Positions 52,888 to 62,898 of a stretch of 64,000 nt of DNA are shown here, in pieces. The position numbers and the translations under genes are program-made. The stretch covers positions 282,711 through 346,710 of the forward strand of contig NZ_JACOFZ010000002.1 in assembly GCF_014284155.1 (NCBI RefSeq). The letters are read 5' to 3'. The notes below the pieces were generated by a model, which was given only the letters and a program-made list of their open reading frames with translations, was not told the DNA's origin and did not search any database. The DNA is from Affinundibacterium nitidum (GTDB lineage: Bacteria; Pseudomonadota; Gammaproteobacteria; Burkholderiales; Burkholderiaceae_D). Numbering within the stretch: position 1 is the stretch's first letter; every line of letters starts with the position of its first letter.

Positions 52888-55800
52888 ATGTTGTCGAAGT
52901 TAAAGCCTCAATCGAGCATATTCTTACCCGCATCGATTTTCATTGCGGGCGTTTTAATTTCGATCTCCACGGCTGTCTGGAGATACCAAATCGCCAAACA
53001 AAATGCAGAACTAGAGTATCAACGCTCCAAAGAACATATCGTTAACGAAATAAAGCAACGTTTTAATCTTCCGCTTTACGGCATTGTCGGATTGAAAGCC
53101 CAATTTCAAATCAACCCTAAGCTCACTCGCAAAGACTTCCGCACTGCCGTGAATAGCCGCGACTTAGCTAGCGAGTTTCCTGGCTTGCGCGGTTTCAGTT
53201 TGGTACAGCCTGTTTCGAAAAAGCATATCGACGAATTCGTTGCCCAACAACGACGAGATGGTGAATCCGATTTTTCTTTACGTCAGCTTTCCGATAAAAA
53301 CAACGATGATTTGTATGTCATCCGCTATATCGAACCACAACTAGGGAATGTGAAAGCGCTAGGCTTAGACTTAGGATCAGAAAAACGTCGCCGTGAGGCG
53401 CTGCAGAGAGCGATCGATACTGGTAGCCCACAAATGACTGCAGCACTGGAATTAGTGCAAGACAACCGGCAAAGCAGTGGTGTCATTATTTTTCTGCCGG
53501 TCTACCAGACCGGCGCCAACACCAATACTGTCGAAGAACGCCGTCAAGCGCTCATGTATTTGATCTCAACTCCAATCGTGGTCGATGAGTTGTTTCGAGG
53601 CATAGGACAACATCAATCGCAAAATATCGAATTTGAACTATTTGATGTGCAAAAAGACAGTAACTATGAAAACCTATTGTTTGATTCGGATAACCACAAT
53701 CTCTTGAAAGAAGCAGACACAGGATCCCAGCTCTTTCATAGCGAAGAAGAGATCAAAATTCATGGACGTGCACTGGGCTTATATGTTGCCAGTACCGATA
53801 AACTCGATGCTGAAGTCAATGGATTCGTTCCTTGGCTCATCTTCATTGGAGGCAGCTTCATTAGTCTTCTGATTGCACTGCTCTTGTTTCATCAGAATGA
53901 ACTCCGTTTGCGTGCCGAAATCATGGCGAATCAAATGACGGATGAACTGGAAAAACTTGCACAAGCAGTCAAGCACACCAGTGACGCAGTTGTTTTTACC
54001 GATCTCAATGGCAATATCACATGGGTGAATCCTAGCTTCGTAAGAATGACCCATTATGGGCCAAATGAAGTGCGCGGCCGCCCTATTTCGATTTACCTCA
54101 AATCTCCAAATCATGAGCAGCAAAGCTTTGATGATTTCCAAGCACGTTTTAATCACTTAACGATGAATCATATTGAAACCAAGAGTCAAGCCAAAAATGG
54201 GCGCTTGTATTGGTTAGAAATTGAAAAGCAAAATTTACTCAATGCTGAAGAAGAACTTGATGGCTATATGTTCGTCTGTAGTGAAATCACAGAAAGGCGA
54301 AACACCTTAGAACAATTGGAAATCGCGATCCGAGATAGCGAAGCACTTCGCACTACCCTCAATTTGCATGCGATCGTCTCAATTGCCGATCGTAGCGGAA
54401 ATATCATTTCGGTAAATGATGCGTTCTGCGAAATTAGTGGTTTCTCACGTGAAGAGCTTATTGGTGCGAATCATCGCATCGTGAATTCAGGCATTCACCC
54501 CGCCGAATTTTGGCAAGAAGTGTGGCAAATCATTGGTCATGGAAAATCCTGGAGAGGAGAAATCTGTAATCGTACTAGAAGTGGCTCGCTGTATTGGGTC
54601 GATACGATCATTACACCATTTCAAGACAAGCAAGGAAAAATAGAACGATTTGTCTCGATTCGAACCGATATCACCAATCGCAAGATGGCTGAATTCGAGC
54701 TGAAGAACAGCCAACGTCGCCTAGTTGAAGCGCAAAACGCAGCTCACATTGGTAACTATTTTTACGACATTACCAACGATGTCTGGACTTGTTCAAGTAC
54801 GCTCGACGATGTTTTTGGCATCAACTCGGGCACCATCAAAAATATGGGAACGTGGGTTGATTTGGTAGTTCCGAAACACCGTAATTTGGTGCAAAACCAT
54901 TTTACGCATGCCATTGCAGAACGTACGCGATTCAATCTAGATTACCAAATTCGTCGCAAATCTGATGGAGCAGTTCGCTGGGTATTAGGCTTGGGAATTT
55001 TGAATTTTAGCGATGACGGAAGACCTTTAAGTTTAGAAGGCGTAATCCAAGATATTACTGATCGAAAAGAAGCGGAAATAAGACTTAAGGAAAACGAAGA
55101 TCTCTTAAATGATGCACAAAGAACCGCGAGAATCGGCTCTTATGTCACCGATATCAAAGCAGGCACGTGGCGCGGATCGCCAATGATGAATGAGATATTC
55201 GGGATCCGTGAAGATGAAGCGAAAACCATAGAAACTTGGGGGCAGATCATTGCCCCGGAATATCGCCAACGTGTACTTGAACATTATCAGTCCGTCGTCA
55301 CCAGCGACGGTAACTTTCATTTCGATTATGAAGTAATCCGCCCTGTCGATGGTCGACGTTGCTGGGTCTCAGCCAGAGGTCATTTTAGCTACGACGAAAA
55401 TGGAAACCCCATTACTTTACAAGGCTCGATAAAAGACATCACAGAAGAAAAAGAACGCGAAATCGAACTGACCGAATATCGCGATAAGCTCGAACAGCTA
55501 GTCGAACAAAAAACCCAAGACTTACAAGAAAGTGTCGCCTCCACCGAGCGCGCGCTAACCGCCCTGCGTCAACAGAAATTTGTACTCGATGAACACGCAA
55601 TTGTCAGCATTTGCGATAACAAAGGTCGAATCACTTATGGAAACAAGCGTTTTGCCGAAATTAGTGGCTACAGCCGAGACGAGTTTCTCGGCAAAAATCA
55701 TCGCATCATTAATTCCGGCCACCATCCTGCGAGTTTTTTTCGAGAGATGTACGAGACCATTTTACGCGGCGATGCGTGGCATGGAGAGATTTGCAATCGC

Positions 55801-58800
55801 TCAAAAAACGGGAAATTATATTGGGTTGACTCCACCATTATTGCCTTCATGGATGAGCATGGAAAACCGCAAGAATTTATTGGGATACGTACCGATATCA
55901 CTGAACGTAAACAGCACGCCTTATACGAAGAATTTCGCAGTCAAATACTACAATTGATCACAGGCGATGTGTCAATCGACACTCTTACCAATACGATGGC
56001 GAAAGAACTCGAAGCGGTCGATAGCGAGATTTCGTGCAGTATTTTATTCGCCGACGAGAAACAGAAAACCCTACATCTCGCCGCCGCACCAAGTTTGCCC
56101 GACAGTTACAAATCGGCTCTCGAAGTTATCGATATCGCTGACGGCGTGCGCACGGGTGGCACGGCCGCATTTCGCGCGCAACGCGTGATCATCGAAGACA
56201 TCAATACTCATCCTTACTGGGAAGGACACCGAGAGCTAGCCCAAACTGTCGGCATTCATTCTTGCTGGGCACAACCTTTCTTTTCGAGTAATGGGCGAGT
56301 ACTTGGCGTCATTTCGATTTATCACAAAGCGCCCCACAACCCAACAGAGACAGAGTTACGCTTTGTAGAACAAGCTGCAAAATTGCTCGGTATTGCGGTC
56401 GATCGCAAACGTGATGCGGAAGCTTTAGCAAAGAGTGAGGAAAGGTTTGAGCTCGCCGTCGAAGGCGCAGATGAAGGGATTTGGGATCTTGACATCACAA
56501 CTGGGGCCCTGTATCACTCTCCCCGCATGTGGGAAATGTTAGGCTATACAGAAGAAGAATTACCTACCATTCGCGAATGCTGGAATGCAATTACCCATCC
56601 GGATGACATCGCCGAGTTTCTTCGCCAAATGGTTGACCATTTCAAAGATCCGACTAAAGAAGTTCGAGTCACCGTGCGTCTGAAACATAAAAATGGAACT
56701 TGGCGTTGGGTACAGAGCCAGGGACGTGCCACTCGCGATGCACAAGGTCGTGCAATTCGCGTCACTGGCACCAATACGGATGTTACCGATAGGAAGTTGG
56801 CAGAAGAGGCTGCCTTAGCGGCGAACCGCGCTAAGTCAGAATTCTTGGCGAACATGAGCCATGAAATCAGAACGCCGATGAATGGTGTGGTTGGCATGGT
56901 CGATATTCTGCAGCAGACAGCGCTGACGCCTGACCAACGTCATATGTTAGAAACGATACAAAGTTCCTCCGTCGCTTTACTCAGTATTCTCAATGATATT
57001 CTAGATTTTTCTAAAATCGAGGCAGGAAAACTCATCATCGAGACTATCCCAACGTCGGTACGTGATGTTGTAGAAGATGTCACTCGATTAATGCTGAATG
57101 TCGCACATCGCAAGAACATCAAAATTTCTCTCTTCGTGGATCCGCAATTGCCTGAATGGGTTTATCTAGACCCCACTCGCCTACGTCAAATTTTGTTTAA
57201 TTTAGTGGGCAATGCATTAAAGTTCACTCCTCAAAATGGTGGTGAGACCATGTTGCACGTGCACACATCCCATCATCCAGAGCAACAAGCATATTTGCAA
57301 TTCCGGGTCGTTGATCATGGGATTGGGATGTCAGACCAAATTTTATCGAAGCTGTTTCAACCATTCACCCAAGCCGATGCCAGTACCGCGCGACAGTTTG
57401 GTGGAACAGGTCTTGGTCTCTCCATTACCCAGCGTTTGGTGACTCTCATGCATGGGAAATTAAGTGCCAATAGCAGTGAAGGTATTGGTTCGGAATTTAT
57501 TATCGAATTCCCACTCCAAGAAGCACCGGCCCCCGCAGATCGCAAACCACTCGTTCTTCCGAATATCGAAGGGCAAGCCGTACTCTTGGTAACAGATCGC
57601 GTGAGTTGTTCGACCATTCTGCAAACCTACTTGGGTTCAGCCCAAGCGCAAGTCAGCGTCGTACGCAACATCGACGAAGCGAAAAATTACTTGCACGACC
57701 TCTCTTCTATGCCTGTACTCATCTATGACCAACTAAGTTTTGACAAGGCGTATTCGGCCTCAGAGCTACCGACCGGAATCCAGGTCATTGAAATCGGTGA
57801 GAACATCGACAATCGTTCTGATCAAGGACTTAAACTTAATGACTGGCCTTTGTTCTATTACGATCTAATTAGCATGGTTGCCGTCGCCAGCGGTAGACTG
57901 TCCGCGAGCAAACTCTTACAAAGACAGGATCAAGCTCGCATCGAAGCGGTCGATGCAATCACAACAGAGCAGGCCTTAGCACGTGGTCAATTAATTTTAC
58001 TGGCAGAAGATAACGAGACGAATCGCGAAGTACTTATGGAACAATTGAGGCTGCTAGGCTACGCTGCCGAGTCAGCTGAGGATGGCGAAGTCGCCTTGAG
58101 GATGTGGCGTAGCGGCCGTTATGCGTTATTACTGACTGATTGTCATATGCCGAACATGGATGGCTTCGAGCTCACGGCAGCTGTGAGAGAGATCGAAGGT
58201 GAAGAGAAACGATCACCTATCATCGCCATCACAGCCAATGCCATGCAGGGTGAAGCACAACGTTGCCGTGAACGCGGCATGGATGACTATTTATCTAAAC
58301 CATTGCGCTTAAATGAATTAAGAACCATGATGCAAAAATGGTTGCCGGTTGCAAATCTCAAAGGCGAAACTTCCACCAGCGAAGAAGCAACTGTGGATCA
58401 AGGCCCCGATCTGCCAACGAAGATGTCGAGTATCAGTGAGAGTCCTTCAATCAGCGACTTCCCAGTCTGGTCACAGGGAGCACTAGCGGAGCTCATTGGC
58501 AACAATATCAATTTACAAAAACGCTTACTCACCAAGTTCATTGCGAAAGGCGATGATGAAGTCGCCGCCATCAAAACTGCGATTGAGGCGAAAGATCCTG
58601 GGAAGGTAAAAATGTTGGCACATACGATGAAATCTGCCTCACGCTCCGTGGGTGCATTGGCACTCGGGGAAGCTTGTCAAGAAATGGAGGCCGCTGGACG
58701 CGAAGAACGTCTCGCAGACTGTGTTCTTATTCTTCCAAGTTTAATTGACGCGTATCAAGGTGCGAAATTACGCATTAGCGAATACTTAGCAACAGAAGCA

Positions 58801-58803
58801 TGA
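52888..58803 (+). CDS. Multi-PAS hybrid sensor histidine kinase (CHASE-PASx6-GAF-HK-REC-HPt)
   Basis: A 1971-residue membrane sensor. A helix at residues 13-30, a periplasmic CHASE-type domain (about 45-300) and a second helix (about 311-333) come first. Then follow PAS domains at about 350-470, 485-605, 606-735, 736-860 and 889-1010, a GAF domain (1012-1178) and a sixth PAS (1184-1304). The kinase core has phospho-acceptor His1325 (FLANMSHEIRTPMNG), an HATPase with GGTGLGLSI, a receiver-like region lacking the acidic pair (about 1555-1650), a true receiver with Asp1751 (TDCHMPNMDG) and an HPt domain with His1912 (LAHTMKSAS). Phosphotransfer via HPt to the adjacent receiver protein is likely. 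Confidence 0.92.
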   Translation: MLSKLKPQSSIFLPASIFIAGVLISISTAVWRYQIAKQNAELEYQRSKEHIVNEIKQRFNLPLYGIVGLKAQFQINPKLTRKDFRTAVNSRDLASEFPGLRGFSLVQPVSKKHIDEFVAQQRRDGESDFSLRQLSDKNNDDLYVIRYIEPQLGNVKALGLDLGSEKRRREALQRAIDTGSPQMTAALELVQDNRQSSGVIIFLPVYQTGANTNTVEERRQALMYLISTPIVVDELFRGIGQHQSQNIEFELFDVQKDSNYENLLFDSDNHNLLKEADTGSQLFHSEEEIKIHGRALGLYVASTDKLDAEVNGFVPWLIFIGGSFISLLIALLLFHQNELRLRAEIMANQMTDELEKLAQAVKHTSDAVVFTDLNGNITWVNPSFVRMTHYGPNEVRGRPISIYLKSPNHEQQSFDDFQARFNHLTMNHIETKSQAKNGRLYWLEIEKQNLLNAEEELDGYMFVCSEITERRNTLEQLEIAIRDSEALRTTLNLHAIVSIADRSGNIISVNDAFCEISGFSREELIGANHRIVNSGIHPAEFWQEVWQIIGHGKSWRGEICNRTRSGSLYWVDTIITPFQDKQGKIERFVSIRTDITNRKMAEFELKNSQRRLVEAQNAAHIGNYFYDITNDVWTCSSTLDDVFGINSGTIKNMGTWVDLVVPKHRNLVQNHFTHAIAERTRFNLDYQIRRKSDGAVRWVLGLGILNFSDDGRPLSLEGVIQDITDRKEAEIRLKENEDLLNDAQRTARIGSYVTDIKAGTWRGSPMMNEIFGIREDEAKTIETWGQIIAPEYRQRVLEHYQSVVTSDGNFHFDYEVIRPVDGRRCWVSARGHFSYDENGNPITLQGSIKDITEEKEREIELTEYRDKLEQLVEQKTQDLQESVASTERALTALRQQKFVLDEHAIVSICDNKGRITYGNKRFAEISGYSRDEFLGKNHRIINSGHHPASFFREMYETILRGDAWHGEICNRSKNGKLYWVDSTIIAFMDEHGKPQEFIGIRTDITERKQHALYEEFRSQILQLITGDVSIDTLTNTMAKELEAVDSEISCSILFADEKQKTLHLAAAPSLPDSYKSALEVIDIADGVRTGGTAAFRAQRVIIEDINTHPYWEGHRELAQTVGIHSCWAQPFFSSNGRVLGVISIYHKAPHNPTETELRFVEQAAKLLGIAVDRKRDAEALAKSEERFELAVEGADEGIWDLDITTGALYHSPRMWEMLGYTEEELPTIRECWNAITHPDDIAEFLRQMVDHFKDPTKEVRVTVRLKHKNGTWRWVQSQGRATRDAQGRAIRVTGTNTDVTDRKLAEEAALAANRAKSEFLANMSHEIRTPMNGVVGMVDILQQTALTPDQRHMLETIQSSSVALLSILNDILDFSKIEAGKLIIETIPTSVRDVVEDVTRLMLNVAHRKNIKISLFVDPQLPEWVYLDPTRLRQILFNLVGNALKFTPQNGGETMLHVHTSHHPEQQAYLQFRVVDHGIGMSDQILSKLFQPFTQADASTARQFGGTGLGLSITQRLVTLMHGKLSANSSEGIGSEFIIEFPLQEAPAPADRKPLVLPNIEGQAVLLVTDRVSCSTILQTYLGSAQAQVSVVRNIDEAKNYLHDLSSMPVLIYDQLSFDKAYSASELPTGIQVIEIGENIDNRSDQGLKLNDWPLFYYDLISMVAVASGRLSASKLLQRQDQARIEAVDAITTEQALARGQLILLAEDNETNREVLMEQLRLLGYAAESAEDGEVALRMWRSGRYALLLTDCHMPNMDGFELTAAVREIEGEEKRSPIIAITANAMQGEAQRCRERGMDDYLSKPLRLNELRTMMQKWLPVANLKGETSTSEEATVDQGPDLPTKMSSISESPSISDFPVWSQGALAELIGNNINLQKRLLTKFIAKGDDEVAAIKTAIEAKDPGKVKMLAHTMKSASRSVGALALGEACQEMEAAGREERLADCVLILPSLIDAYQGAKLRISEYLATEA

Positions 58804-58960: not shown

Positions 58961-59371
58961 ATGAATACCAGTACGATGACTCCAACCGAACAGTCCGTTC
59001 TCATTCTTGATGATGACGAATTTGCTCAAGATATCTTGATTAGTATGCTTGAGGAGCTTGGCATTACTAAGGTCAGCACCGCCATTGATGGCAATGATGG
59101 TCTGCGCGTATTGGAAGAAATGGCCGTTGAGCCTGACATCTTAATTTGCGACATCTTGATGCCAGATATGGACGGCATGAGTTTTTTAACTGAGCTCGCA
59201 AAAACAAATTACAAAGGTAAAGTGGCACTGGTAAGCGGCATCGATGGAGATATCCTGAGTATCGCTGAGAAAGTCGTGCGCGATGACGGTCTCAATATTA
59301 TCGGCGCCTTCCTCAAACCGATCAAGCTCGATCATTTATCACAAATTATTGCGGCTCCTGTCAGTCATTAG
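58961..59371 (+). CDS. Single-domain response regulator (CheY-like)
   Basis: A 136-residue receiver protein with no output domain. The acidic pocket is LDDDE (residues 16-20), the phospho-acceptor Asp64 (LICDILMPDMDG) and the conserved Lys in FLKPIKL near residue 119. AGGAGG precedes the ATG. It lies 157 bases after the hybrid kinase and in the same direction, so it probably receives phosphate from the kinase's HPt domain and acts through protein contacts, not DNA binding. Confidence 0.92.
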   Translation: MNTSTMTPTEQSVLILDDDEFAQDILISMLEELGITKVSTAIDGNDGLRVLEEMAVEPDILICDILMPDMDGMSFLTELAKTNYKGKVALVSGIDGDILSIAEKVVRDDGLNIIGAFLKPIKLDHLSQIIAAPVSH

Positions 59372-59557: not shown

Positions 59558-59656
59558 CTATTTTCAGTTCCAAGAGGGCAAACTCGTTGAAAGACGAGGA
59601 CGCAAAGCCACCGGCCTAAAGCACGCGAGTGCAATGGTAGCGGGGTTGCCAAATAG
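59558..59656 (+). promoter_or_regulatory. Cyclic di-GMP-I (GEMM) riboswitch aptamer
   Basis: The conserved core of the class I c-di-GMP riboswitch is present: GGGCAAAC (59577-59584), a P2 stem CTCGT/ACGAG capped by a GAAA tetraloop, GGACGCAAAGCC then ACCGGCCTAA (tetraloop receptor side), a P3 hairpin GCAC/GTGC and ATGGTAGCGGGGTTGCC closing the fold (to 59650). P1 is probably TCTATTT (59557-59563) with AAATAGA (59651-59657). It lies about 75 bases ahead of the sedolisin gene and is followed by a terminator-like hairpin, so it should control that gene in response to c-di-GMP. Confidence 0.93.
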
Positions 59657-59691
59657 AGAAATCGTGCCAGCCAGCGAAAATTTCTCTTTTT
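59655..59691 (+). terminator. Terminator-like hairpin of the riboswitch expression platform
   Basis: AGAGAAAT (59655-59662) pairs with ATTTCTCT (59680-59687), followed by TTTTG. Its 5' arm shares two or three bases with the 3' side of P1, so ligand-stabilised P1 could oppose termination. The stem is AT-rich and the loop large, so strength is uncertain. Confidence 0.55.
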
Positions 59692-59704
59692 GTTCAAGCG
59701 TTGC

Positions 59705-59724
59705 TCTCTCCTTTATTTGAGAGA
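59705..59724 (+). promoter_or_regulatory. Hairpin covering the ribosome-binding site of the sedolisin gene
   Basis: TCTCTC (59705-59710) is perfectly complementary to GAGAGA (59719-59724), the only Shine-Dalgarno-like sequence before ATG 59731. The hairpin could limit translation and be part of the riboswitch platform. Confidence 0.45.
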
Positions 59725-59730
59725 CGCACT

Positions 59731-62700
59731 ATGAAATCCAAGCCACCTGTCAGTCAAGCCAAGCGCATTGCCTTCCCTACCATGTTGGCGGCGTTAAGCT
59801 ACTCTGGTGTGTTACTCGCCAGTGCATTTCTCCTCGCTAATCTGAGTGCTTGTAGCTCGGGCGACACGACGACACAAAACAATTCAAGCTTAGCGCCTGC
59901 GCCAGCTCCGGTAGCAACCGCGAAGCTCGAGTTTCATCAAGAAGTGGCTAAATCTGAACTCGTTCAACAACAAGCCAGACCTTCGTTCCATTTAGCACCA
60001 GTTGTGTTGGAAGCACCAACGAGTGAAACGATCATCCGCTCTGAACATCGGCCTGCACATCAACAGGCAATCAGTGCAGATAGTTTAAGCCTGTCAACCC
60101 GTGGCACTCCAATTGCAGACATTCAAAAAGGCCTACAACGCCAACGAGATACATATGCAGCGATGGTGCAAGCAGGTGTATCACCGCCACCGACAGCGAC
60201 AGCAATGGTCGCGACATACACACCAGCGCAAATTCGCGCTGCTTACGGTTTGCCAGCGATTCCTGCTGGCACAAGCTATACCGCAGCTCAAGCGGCGGCG
60301 TTAGGCGCTAAACAAACAATCTACATCGTTGACGCGATGCATAACCCGAATATTGCTGCGGAACTAGCGGCCTTTAATCAACGATTTGCCTTACCCACAT
60401 GTACCACTAAAGCAGTCGCCAGCAACGCAACTTTGCCTCTCGCTGCGCCGAGCGCGACTTCATGTGATTTGTCGATCGTGTTTGCCAACACCGCTGGCGC
60501 GATGACCAGCACAGCGCCAGCCTATGATTCCGGCTGGGCTACAGAAATTGCTCTTGACGTTCAATGGGCTCACGCGATCGCCCCATTGGCGCGCATCGTC
60601 GTGATCGAAGCGCCTGATGCCAGCGTCAACAGCTTAACCAATGCCGTTAAATTAGCCAATGCCATGGGGCCTGGTGTAGTGTCGATGAGCTTTGGTGCGC
60701 CAGAAGGTAGCTGGGGCAGCAGTTTCGATTCCACTTTCACCACCACCGGAATGAGCTACTTAGCCGCAACCGGAGACGCAGGAATGGAAGTTGAATGGCC
60801 CTCTGCTTCAAGTAATGTGCTAGCTGTTGGTGGTACTTCCCTCACTTACAGCGGAACAGGCAACCGCAGCGAAGTGGCCTGGAGTCAAACGGGCGGTGGC
60901 ATCAGTGCGTATATCGCCACACCTAAATATCAAGCGAACACTGTGCCTGGTATGGGTACGGCTGTGCGTCGCACAGTAGCCGATGTCTCTTTCAATGCGA
61001 ATCCATCGACTGGTCAGTACGTCGCCTCTATTAATCCGGGCTCAAGCACGGCAAATTGGATTAGTGCCGGCGGTACGAGTCTTTCTACACCGCAATGGGC
61101 AGGTTTGATTGCTATCGTTAATGCACAACGCCTCGCTGCAGGCAAAGCACTACTAGGTGCCCCACATACAATGTTATATGGCAATGTCGCCAGCGTCTCT
61201 GGCAACTACGCGAGTGCCTTCCTCGATATCACCAGCGGCAGTCATGGCACTTGCGCCACATGTTCTGCGAAAACTGGCTATGATCAGGCCACAGGTCTTG
61301 GTACACCCAACGTTACCAACTTACTTTCGCAATTGAGTAATACCAGTGTCGCTGCGGCACCGCCAAGTATTTCTTCAGCTACGATCAGTGGCGAGACTGG
61401 TACAGCATTAACCTATACCGTCGCTGCCAGTGGTAGCAACCCATTGAGCTTTAGCTTATCTGGCGCACCCACTGGAATGAGCATTAGCTCGGCTGGGATC
61501 TTGACGTGGGCAACGCCAGTCGTTGGCACTTATTCTGTTACGGTCATCGCCAAAGACAGTGTCGCTAATCTCACCTCTCAGGCTGTCATCACGATCAAGA
61601 TTACCGCACCTGTACCACCGAGCATCACAGCTGCCAGCGTCAACGGCACAGTCGGCCAAGCACTTAGCTTTAATATCAGCGCAACCGGCAGCAATCCACT
61701 GACCTACAGTTTAACCGGCGCACCAACGGGCATGACAGTCAACACAAGTGGTGTCCTCAGCTGGGCAGCGCCAGTGCTCGGTAAATATTCCGTCACGGCA
61801 GTGGTGAAGGACAGTAAGTCTGGTTTAACCGCTCAGGCGATTTATACGGTCACTGTCGTCAATCCACCGGCTCCTAGTATTGCAGCTGGGGCGATTAGTG
61901 GCGCAGTCGGCAAAGCACTCACATTCAATGTCTGCGCAGTCGCTTCAAACCCTGTGACCTATAGCATGACTGGTGCGCCAAGTGGTATGACGATCAGCAC
62001 TGCAGGCGCTGTTAGCTGGCCGACACCAGTCTTGGGCAAATACACATTGACCATCACTGCAAAAGACACGCTTTCCGGCCTATCTGGTTCTGGTGTTTAT
62101 ACTGTCACGATTGTTAATCCACCAGCACCAATCGTAAGCGCACAAACTATTAACGGCAAAGTAGGAACTGCACTCAGCTTTACACCGAGTGTCGTTGCTT
62201 CTAACCCAGTAAGCTTTACCTTAACTGGGGCACCTTCCGGTATGAGTATCAGCAGCACTGGGGTGGTGAGCTGGGCGACGCCAATACTCGGCACTTACAA
62301 TGTCAGTGTTACCGCCAAAGACAATGCAACCGGACTCAGTGGGCAAGCAAATATTACGGTGACAATCACCAACCCACCAGCGCCCGTAGTCACAGCCCAA
62401 ACGATCAATGGCACCGTAGGCACGGCATTAAGTTTCACACCGCAAGTTACCGCTTCAAATCCAGTCAGCTATAGCATGACGGGCGCACCATCGGGCATGA
62501 ACATCGCAAGCGCTGGGGCTATTGCTTGGGCTTCGCCTGTTGCAGGAACCTATAACGTGACGATCATCGCGAAAGACATTAAGACTGGTCTGAGCGGCCA
62601 AGCAACAATCACTTTCGTCATTAGTGTTGCTGGTCCAGTCATTACAGCACCTGCACAGAATGGTGTCGCTGGTAAGCCATTGAGTGGCAGCATCACCATT

Positions 62701-62898
62701 ACAGATCCTGGTGTGAGCTATATTTCTGTATCAATCAGCGGCGTTCCTCTCGGCATGTCGATGGCGATGAATGGCATGAGCATTACCACGAATTGGGCGT
62801 CTCCAGTGACAGGCTCCTACACCATGAAGGTAACCGTGACAGATTCGGCCGGGCGCACTGCGACCGCAGATGTACCAATTACAATTGCAGCAAAATAG
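59731..62898 (+). CDS. Sedolisin (S53) family serine-carboxyl peptidase lipoprotein with Ig-like repeats
   Basis: A 1055-residue secreted protease. The lipobox LSAC (Cys41, followed by Ser) predicts an outer-membrane lipoprotein. After a linker and a short pro-region the S53 domain (about 160-535) shows the Glu272/Asp276 pair (GWATEIALD), oxyanion Asp349 (ATGDAG) and nucleophile Ser450 (GGTSLSTP), and a calcium-site end (SAFLDITSG, GYDQATGLGTPN). Six Ig-like (He_PIG type) repeats of about 84 residues follow, each with SxTGAPxGMxI and GxYxVTxxAKD. ATG 59731 is preferred over a TTG at 59701 because it has a Shine-Dalgarno and places the signal peptide properly. It has its own terminator. Confidence 0.93.
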   Translation: MKSKPPVSQAKRIAFPTMLAALSYSGVLLASAFLLANLSACSSGDTTTQNNSSLAPAPAPVATAKLEFHQEVAKSELVQQQARPSFHLAPVVLEAPTSETIIRSEHRPAHQQAISADSLSLSTRGTPIADIQKGLQRQRDTYAAMVQAGVSPPPTATAMVATYTPAQIRAAYGLPAIPAGTSYTAAQAAALGAKQTIYIVDAMHNPNIAAELAAFNQRFALPTCTTKAVASNATLPLAAPSATSCDLSIVFANTAGAMTSTAPAYDSGWATEIALDVQWAHAIAPLARIVVIEAPDASVNSLTNAVKLANAMGPGVVSMSFGAPEGSWGSSFDSTFTTTGMSYLAATGDAGMEVEWPSASSNVLAVGGTSLTYSGTGNRSEVAWSQTGGGISAYIATPKYQANTVPGMGTAVRRTVADVSFNANPSTGQYVASINPGSSTANWISAGGTSLSTPQWAGLIAIVNAQRLAAGKALLGAPHTMLYGNVASVSGNYASAFLDITSGSHGTCATCSAKTGYDQATGLGTPNVTNLLSQLSNTSVAAAPPSISSATISGETGTALTYTVAASGSNPLSFSLSGAPTGMSISSAGILTWATPVVGTYSVTVIAKDSVANLTSQAVITIKITAPVPPSITAASVNGTVGQALSFNISATGSNPLTYSLTGAPTGMTVNTSGVLSWAAPVLGKYSVTAVVKDSKSGLTAQAIYTVTVVNPPAPSIAAGAISGAVGKALTFNVCAVASNPVTYSMTGAPSGMTISTAGAVSWPTPVLGKYTLTITAKDTLSGLSGSGVYTVTIVNPPAPIVSAQTINGKVGTALSFTPSVVASNPVSFTLTGAPSGMSISSTGVVSWATPILGTYNVSVTAKDNATGLSGQANITVTITNPPAPVVTAQTINGTVGTALSFTPQVTASNPVSYSMTGAPSGMNIASAGAIAWASPVAGTYNVTIIAKDIKTGLSGQATITFVISVAGPVITAPAQNGVAGKPLSGSITITDPGVSYISVSISGVPLGMSMAMNGMSITTNWASPVTGSYTMKVTVTDSAGRTATADVPITIAAK
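61365..62896 (+). repeat. Six in-frame repeats coding Ig-like domains
   Basis: The 3' half of the sedolisin gene is built from six units of about 250-255 bases. Units 1-5 are close in sequence, with GTxGxALxF and SGAP(S/T)GM at fixed places; unit 6 is degenerate. Repeat number is likely to vary by recombination between strains. Confidence 0.8.

Follow-up and report, generated by a model that had tools for sequence, protein, structure and literature searches.

A c-di-GMP-I riboswitch before an S53 lipoprotein protease gene in Affinundibacterium nitidum: a probable translational OFF switch

Does a cyclic di-GMP (c-di-GMP) riboswitch control the synthesis of a surface protease in Affinundibacterium nitidum, and, if it does, is the protease switched on or off? 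c-di-GMP is best known as a switch of matrix and motility genes. In the stretch of 64,000 nucleotides analysed here (contig NZ_JACOFZ010000002.1, positions 282,711 to 346,710; hereafter the window), a c-di-GMP-I aptamer lies directly before the gene of an S53 (sedolisin) lipoprotein. Judging from the leader and its relatives in other genomes, the riboswitch probably controls the synthesis of this protease and most likely does so at the level of translation, by switching it OFF at high c-di-GMP.

The aptamer and the gene behind it

Three features define the locus:

59567 to 59653, + strand: c-di-GMP-I (GEMM-I) riboswitch aptamer (cmscan, RF01051)
59731 to 62898, + strand: S53 (sedolisin) lipoprotein of 1055 amino acids, with a lipobox, a linker or pro-region of about 115 amino acids, a catalytic domain and six immunoglobulin-like (Ig-like) repeats
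60187 to 61350, + strand: catalytic domain of family S53, whose Glu, Asp, Asp and Ser are invariant (alignment; kumamolisin-As match, E 5.8e-28)

The Rfam covariance model RF01051 matched 59567-59653 at 89.4 bits (gathering score 35, E 2.1e-16), well beyond what chance would give. The match is full-length (model positions 1-87 of 87), with no non-standard pairs marked, and bears out the GEMM aptamer that the original prediction had read from the sequence. It places the element in the same family as the Vibrio cholerae Vc2/GEMM-I class, although the target gene and leader of Vc2 differ from those of the window. The ligand-selecting position, which we take to be position 20 of the Vc2 numbering, is G in the window aptamer and in 106 of the 107 sites classed below, as in the c-di-GMP type. 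By its sequence this is a canonical c-di-GMP-I riboswitch, and it presumably binds c-di-GMP. In PMC6274999 a G20A change, A replacing G, is named for variants selective for cyclic GMP-AMP. Apparently a single site of the 107 (L123, genome G116), upstream of a DUF4402-like protein, has A at this position and may prefer another cyclic dinucleotide.

The window aptamer is the only RF01051 match in the 4.38-Mb genome, where 42 GGDEF matches were counted, one of them a short fragment. The class-II riboswitch RF01786 had no match in the genome, and the same search gave none in control genomes either. Searching a plasmid collection returned one record, from Aeromonas, with a 73-base match inside the aptamer.

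The reading frame opens with ATG at 59731, 7 nucleotides after a Shine-Dalgarno (SD) sequence and shortly after the aptamer end at 59653, and it ends at 62898; a TTG at 59701 is an alternative start. The aptamer was thus rightly placed directly upstream of the gene in the original prediction. Its interval, 59558 to 62898, ends where the gene does and begins 9 nucleotides before the modelled aptamer.

Neither Pfam nor NCBIfam names the S53 catalytic family for this protein, and membership was therefore tested with a profile of 36 orthologous catalytic domains. This profile found kumamolisin-As (E 5.8e-28) and also matched tripeptidyl-peptidase 1 and sedolisin. Residues E120, D124, D197 and S298 are invariant in all 36 domains and align with those of kumamolisin-As that are presumably the catalytic Glu, the Asp, the oxyanion Asp and the Ser, which establishes the predicted S53 domain (MEROPS S53). 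The window protein differs from kumamolisin and sedolisin in its lipobox, in its six C-terminal Ig-like repeats and in the lack of a Pfam match to the pro-kumamolisin domain at E<=0.01, about 115 residues lying between lipobox and catalytic domain. An N-terminal pro-kumamolisin activation domain is usual in S53 and is not required for family membership. The six repeats had been counted correctly, since Pfam finds six He_PIG stretches. The lipoprotein call agrees with the lipobox-like LSAC of the window protein, a pattern that recurred in each of the 38 S53 proteins inspected. Judged from this pattern the protein is probably exported, and it may be sorted to the outer membrane. As a member of S53 it may also be active at acid pH, as the original prediction supposed.

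Conservation of the pairing

How far beyond this genome does the pairing of aptamer and protease reach? We surveyed 44 Undibacterium genomes (the genus sample) and 393 genomes of the family, with stricter aptamer filters under which weak matches are lost. In the genus, c-di-GMP-I matches occur in 34 of the 44 genomes at 45 sites in total. S53 orthologues, 66-100% identical over the catalytic domain, are present in 21 genomes, and the aptamer lies directly upstream of all 21. Seven distant S53 paralogues of the genus (31-40% identity) have no listed aptamer nearby. When the 44 other genus sites were searched for the neighbour genes of the window, these were common to the sites of the two closest genomes only. 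The neighbours change while the aptamer and the S53 gene persist together, and both therefore travel as a unit.

In the family sample RF01051 is carried by 150 of the 393 genomes. Of the 75 S53 orthologues (E<=1e-120), no fewer than 53 follow an aptamer at a distance of up to 1.5 kb, a lower bound placed with 111 of the listed family sites. Twenty of the 22 orthologues without a placed aptamer belong to genus g39. In the other two genomes the S53 orthologue and the aptamer matches stand on separate contigs (G086) or the match is of unplaced position (G144).

In the GTDB collection the S53 domain has named relatives in, among others, Undibacterium squillarum, U. terreum, U. umbellatum, U. rugosum, U. 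jejuense and U. aquatile. Rfam placed the aptamer upstream of 64 of the best 80 of 216 named loci (16, 18, 17 and 13 in successive batches of 20), and the loci that have it include members of Undibacterium, Janthinobacterium, Rugamonas, Curvibacter, Rhodoferax, Roseateles, Paucibacter, Acidovorax and Rubrivivax. Of the 16 misses, 7 fall in Duganella and 2 each in Paracidovorax, Acidovorax and Rugamonas; two more are other metagenome bins, and the last is locus L148, whose contig starts too close upstream to judge. Conservation of the pairing extends far past this one genome.

Just upstream of the aptamer in the window, on the same strand, lie genes for a CHASE/PAS/GAF hybrid histidine kinase of 1971 amino acids (52888-58803) and a single-domain response regulator (58961-59371).

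Leader pairing and the direction of the switch

The leader between aptamer and start codon contains the elements from which a mechanism can be proposed:

59573 to 59581, + strand: aptamer 5' segment AGAGGGCAA, able to leave the aptamer and pair with 59701-59709 in a helix of 9 base pairs
59655 to 59692, + strand: A/U-rich hairpin (59655-59687) followed by U's (AGAGAAAU...AUUUCUCU-UUUU), a possible weak terminator found by eye (fold -8.9 kcal/mol)
59698 to 59727, + strand: hairpin covering the SD sequence (GCGUUGCUCUC...GAGAGACGC), from the leader fold
59701 to 59709, + strand: anti-SD strand UUGCUCUCU, whose partner is either the SD or the aptamer 5' segment
59719 to 59723, + strand: SD sequence GAGAG, from the sequence and start-codon scoring

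At low c-di-GMP the aptamer would not be held in its fold, and its 5' segment GAGGGC could pair with a strand about 22 nucleotides upstream of the start codon. This helix would leave the SD open and the protease would be synthesised. With c-di-GMP bound, the 5' segment would be locked within the aptamer and the anti-SD strand released to fold onto the SD, so that translation would drop. The original prediction left the direction unstated; the leader pairing favours OFF at high c-di-GMP, and the riboswitch probably halts synthesis of the protease as cells settle. Such a protease may serve surface proteolysis, or the release of matrix or adhesins, in motile or dispersing cells.

Is this pairing a property of one leader or of many? 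We compared 83 distinct S53 leaders, 16 S8 leaders (a 17th S8 site, G023b, was left out) and 16 metallopeptidase leaders. Start codons were scored automatically, with a hand override for G360, G323, G320, G366, G038, G015a, G106, G304 and L181. Automatic picking of the anti-SD strand chose doubtful regions in several leaders, and the later scans were therefore anchored on the aptamer GG. With at least 6 base pairs, 4 or more of them G-C, as the criterion, the helix between 5' segment and leader is possible in 71 of the 83 S53 leaders vs 782 of 4150 dinucleotide shuffles (19%), and in 61 of these 71 it ends 21-26 nucleotides before the start codon. The possibility of the alternative helix is thus conserved. 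GAGGGC, which presumably contains ligand-contacting positions by the Vc2 numbering, is conserved in 61 of the 83 aptamers. Some leaders have paired changes in aptamer and leader: CAGGGC with GUCCUG, CCUGGGC with GUCCAGG, and GAAGGC with GCCUUC, the last with the SD changed to GGAAG. When aptamers were swapped between leaders in an energy-based test, the second attempt of this kind, own pairing beat permuted pairing (10 types, p=0.0019). Enforcing the alternative helix made the SD more open in 55 of the 63 S53 leaders taken for this test.

In the window leader itself, the enforced aptamer core gives -54.0 kcal/mol with the SD paired and the enforced alternative helix -54.8 kcal/mol with the SD largely open; these states, about 1 kcal/mol apart, include no ligand energy. 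The whole leader fold is not unusually stable (z -1.42; 17 shuffles in 200 matched or exceeded its stability). In the S8 leaders an anti-SD strand GGCAGUCC complements the aptamer 3' strand GGACUGCC (14 of 16 at p<=0.05). The S53 and S8 designs would follow the same logic: ligand bound, anti-SD strand free, translation off. Metallopeptidase leaders have a clear SD hairpin in 16 of 16; at L118 (G304) it seems to extend over the beginning of a short open reading frame in the leader, ahead of the metallopeptidase gene, an arrangement that suggests translational coupling.

A variant within the S53 aptamers should also be mentioned. GGCACAC replaces GGCAAAC in seven of them, from Curvibacter (L137, L147, L161, L173, L188), Acidovorax (L175) and an uncultured bacterium (L207). 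A matching GUGCCU or GUGUGC is present in the leaders of four: L137, L147, L161 and L175.

Several results speak against translational OFF control through this helix. The first swap test, based on run length, gave an own sum of 66 vs 62.4 permuted (p=0.19), and by the same measure the 22 non-GAGGGC leaders score marginally higher with a GAGGGC aptamer (6.55) than with the one they carry (6.14). In the energy test the own aptamer ranked first for 4 of the 10 types, second for 2, third for 2, fifth for 1 and last for 1, and 5' pairing was individually significant in 16 of the 83 leaders. The SD-openness test took 63 of the 83 leaders (18 were dropped for aptamer length and 2 had no helix), and the openness of the unconstrained fold (0.44) lay near that of the aptamer state (0.41) and not that of the alternative state (0.57). 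Folded alone, the S53 leaders show no stronger hiding of the SD than shuffles (openness under the shuffled mean in 43 of 83), and pairing of metallopeptidase leaders with their aptamers is weak (3 of 16 vs 10% in shuffles). On the side of linkage, no aptamer is listed for 20 of the 23 orthologues from g39, and the genomes of those 20 show no match. Finally, the SD of the window leader is already hidden in the unconstrained ligand-free fold.

This last point would fit an OFF default and hence an ON switch, in which bound c-di-GMP would increase protease synthesis, perhaps to remodel the matrix of sessile cells. ON switches do exist among class-I riboswitches, such as Bc2 (PMC6366702). However, we found no structure that combines a folded aptamer with a freed SD, the window SD stays paired under the enforced aptamer core, and pairing between aptamer 3' end and SD is no better than in shuffled sequences (-6.0 vs -5.8 kcal/mol). 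We therefore consider an ON switch unlikely. The same riboswitch could instead govern the same gene by transcription termination, with the A/U-rich hairpin at 59655-59687 and its U's as the terminator. The functional class-I switches of Clostridioides difficile work in this way, according to PMC6366702, and the hairpin of the window (-8.9 kcal/mol) recurs with paired changes in G039 and can be made out, less clearly, in G006. The terminator scan, however, found no terminator and did not recognise this hairpin, which was seen by eye in these three genomes and in no others, whereas 71 of 83 leaders could form the SD-proximal helix. Termination seems to us quite improbable.

It could also be asked whether the aptamer is a bystander that has lost regulation of the gene. 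There is a precedent in Bc1 of Bacillus thuringiensis, whose downstream gene was unchanged by c-di-GMP in the cell (PMC11218506). Yet the linkage holds for 21 of 21 genus orthologues and in several Burkholderiales genera, and the leader tends to vary with the aptamer, which makes a bystander very improbable. Translational OFF control is the reading that we prefer.

Other genes behind the riboswitch and the nearest known cases

If the aptamer controls a protease here, what does it precede elsewhere in the family? We classed 107 sites, 45 from the genus and 62 from the rest of the family, by similarity of the downstream gene, with Pfam scans of examples. Peptidases of unrelated families stand downstream at 71 of the 107 (S53 38, S8 16, zinc metallopeptidase 16, M11 1), proportions that do not represent a random sample, since the 62 sites were drawn from the higher-scoring entries of the list and genera g6, g18 and g39 were thinned. 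The 45 genus sites comprise S53 (21), zinc metallopeptidase (12, one frame-broken), S8 subtilase (1), M11 (1), response regulator (8), FliD (1) and a decayed metallopeptidase with an S8 gene 422 nucleotides on (1). The 62 further sites comprise S53 (17), S8 (15), metallopeptidase (4), probable peptidases cut by contig ends (2), SLT lytic-transglycosylase lipoproteins (8), GGDEF-EAL proteins (2), DUF4402 (2), others (10) and sites without a frame (2). The zinc metallopeptidases are M66/M12-like with PPC and/or PKD domains, called from HExxH by eye and sub-threshold Pfam matches. Export of the S8 and metallopeptidase proteins was judged by eye from their N-termini.

Within the genus, the metallopeptidase occurs in 12 of the 44 genomes and the S53 orthologue in 21, never both together (hypergeometric 6e-5, uncorrected for relatedness), and the S53-bearing G004 retains an aptamer before a decayed metallopeptidase gene. 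This mutual exclusion and the decayed gene suggest that the two enzymes may share one job. A wider proposal is a c-di-GMP-I exoprotease OFF regulon of Burkholderiales, where exported peptidases from unrelated families (S53 lipoprotein, S8 subtilase, zinc metallopeptidase) would fill one interchangeable role. The riboswitch would have been acquired more than once, and two leader architectures, with anti-SD pairing to the 5' or the 3' strand of the aptamer, would serve the same logic; in Undibacterium, S53 and metallopeptidase would replace each other. We offer this tentatively and rate its chances as a little short of even.

Other sites differ in their targets. A distinct c-di-GMP-I subtype at eight genus sites (L037, L038, L039, L040, L041, L042, L043 and L044; G010, G032, G043, G015, G026, G021, G022 and G029) has a response-regulator gene 38-39 nucleotides downstream, and most of these sites have a short hairpin and U-run, terminator-like by eye, between aptamer and gene. 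The SLT lytic-transglycosylase lipoproteins follow L075, L082, L088, L100, L107, L108, L121 and L122 (Pfam scan of two, the others by similarity). L097 and L104 stand upstream of GGDEF-EAL proteins, through which c-di-GMP might feed back on its own metabolism. Adjacent duplicated protease genes with a riboswitch for each copy were seen at L033 (metallopeptidase) and at L098 and L106 (subtilases).

The nearest published case is zmpI (PPEP-1, CD2830) of C. difficile. According to PMC6366702 and PMC6200980, zmpI has the class-I riboswitch Cdi-1-12 and is repressed by c-di-GMP, and PPEP-1 cleaves and releases surface adhesins whose genes are under class-II ON switches. Both systems have a class-I aptamer directly before an exported protease gene; expression is OFF at high c-di-GMP there and predicted to be OFF here, from leader pairing with mixed tests. 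As far as these sources go, zmpI encodes a zinc metalloprotease of a Firmicute in which class-I switches act by transcription termination, whereas the window encodes an S53 lipoprotein of a betaproteobacterium under predicted translational control. In Bacillota, tandem c-di-GMP-I riboswitches precede yebA, a transglutaminase-like putative cysteine protease (PMC12452182), which resembles our case in having c-di-GMP-I before a putative protease and differs in enzyme class, phylum and tandem aptamers.

Among the literature matches listed, which largely leave subscription journals uncovered, no paper was found on a c-di-GMP-I/S53 pairing or on a multi-protease set. PMC9144310, the one paper among them with c-di-GMP, riboswitch and sedolisin, leaves these unconnected, the sedolisin standing in a transposon-hit table. 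The earlier statement that this pairing was undescribed is thus uncontradicted in a partly covered literature, but c-di-GMP-I control of a secreted protease was already known from zmpI/PPEP-1. Each component has precedents; what appears new is the combination of this riboswitch with S53 and the control that unrelated proteases have in common.

What would this mean for these bacteria? In a genome with 42 GGDEF matches, the one aptamer of this class that was found stands before a single protease gene, whose product has a lipid-anchor signal. Elsewhere in the family this sensor precedes proteases that are unrelated by descent, and as a set its targets are unusually coherent. The collected S53, S8 and metallopeptidase leaders form a natural comparative set for the evolution of expression platforms. 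If the proposed control is true, it would directly link the decision between sessile and motile life to surface proteolysis, outside C. difficile and in culturable environmental bacteria.

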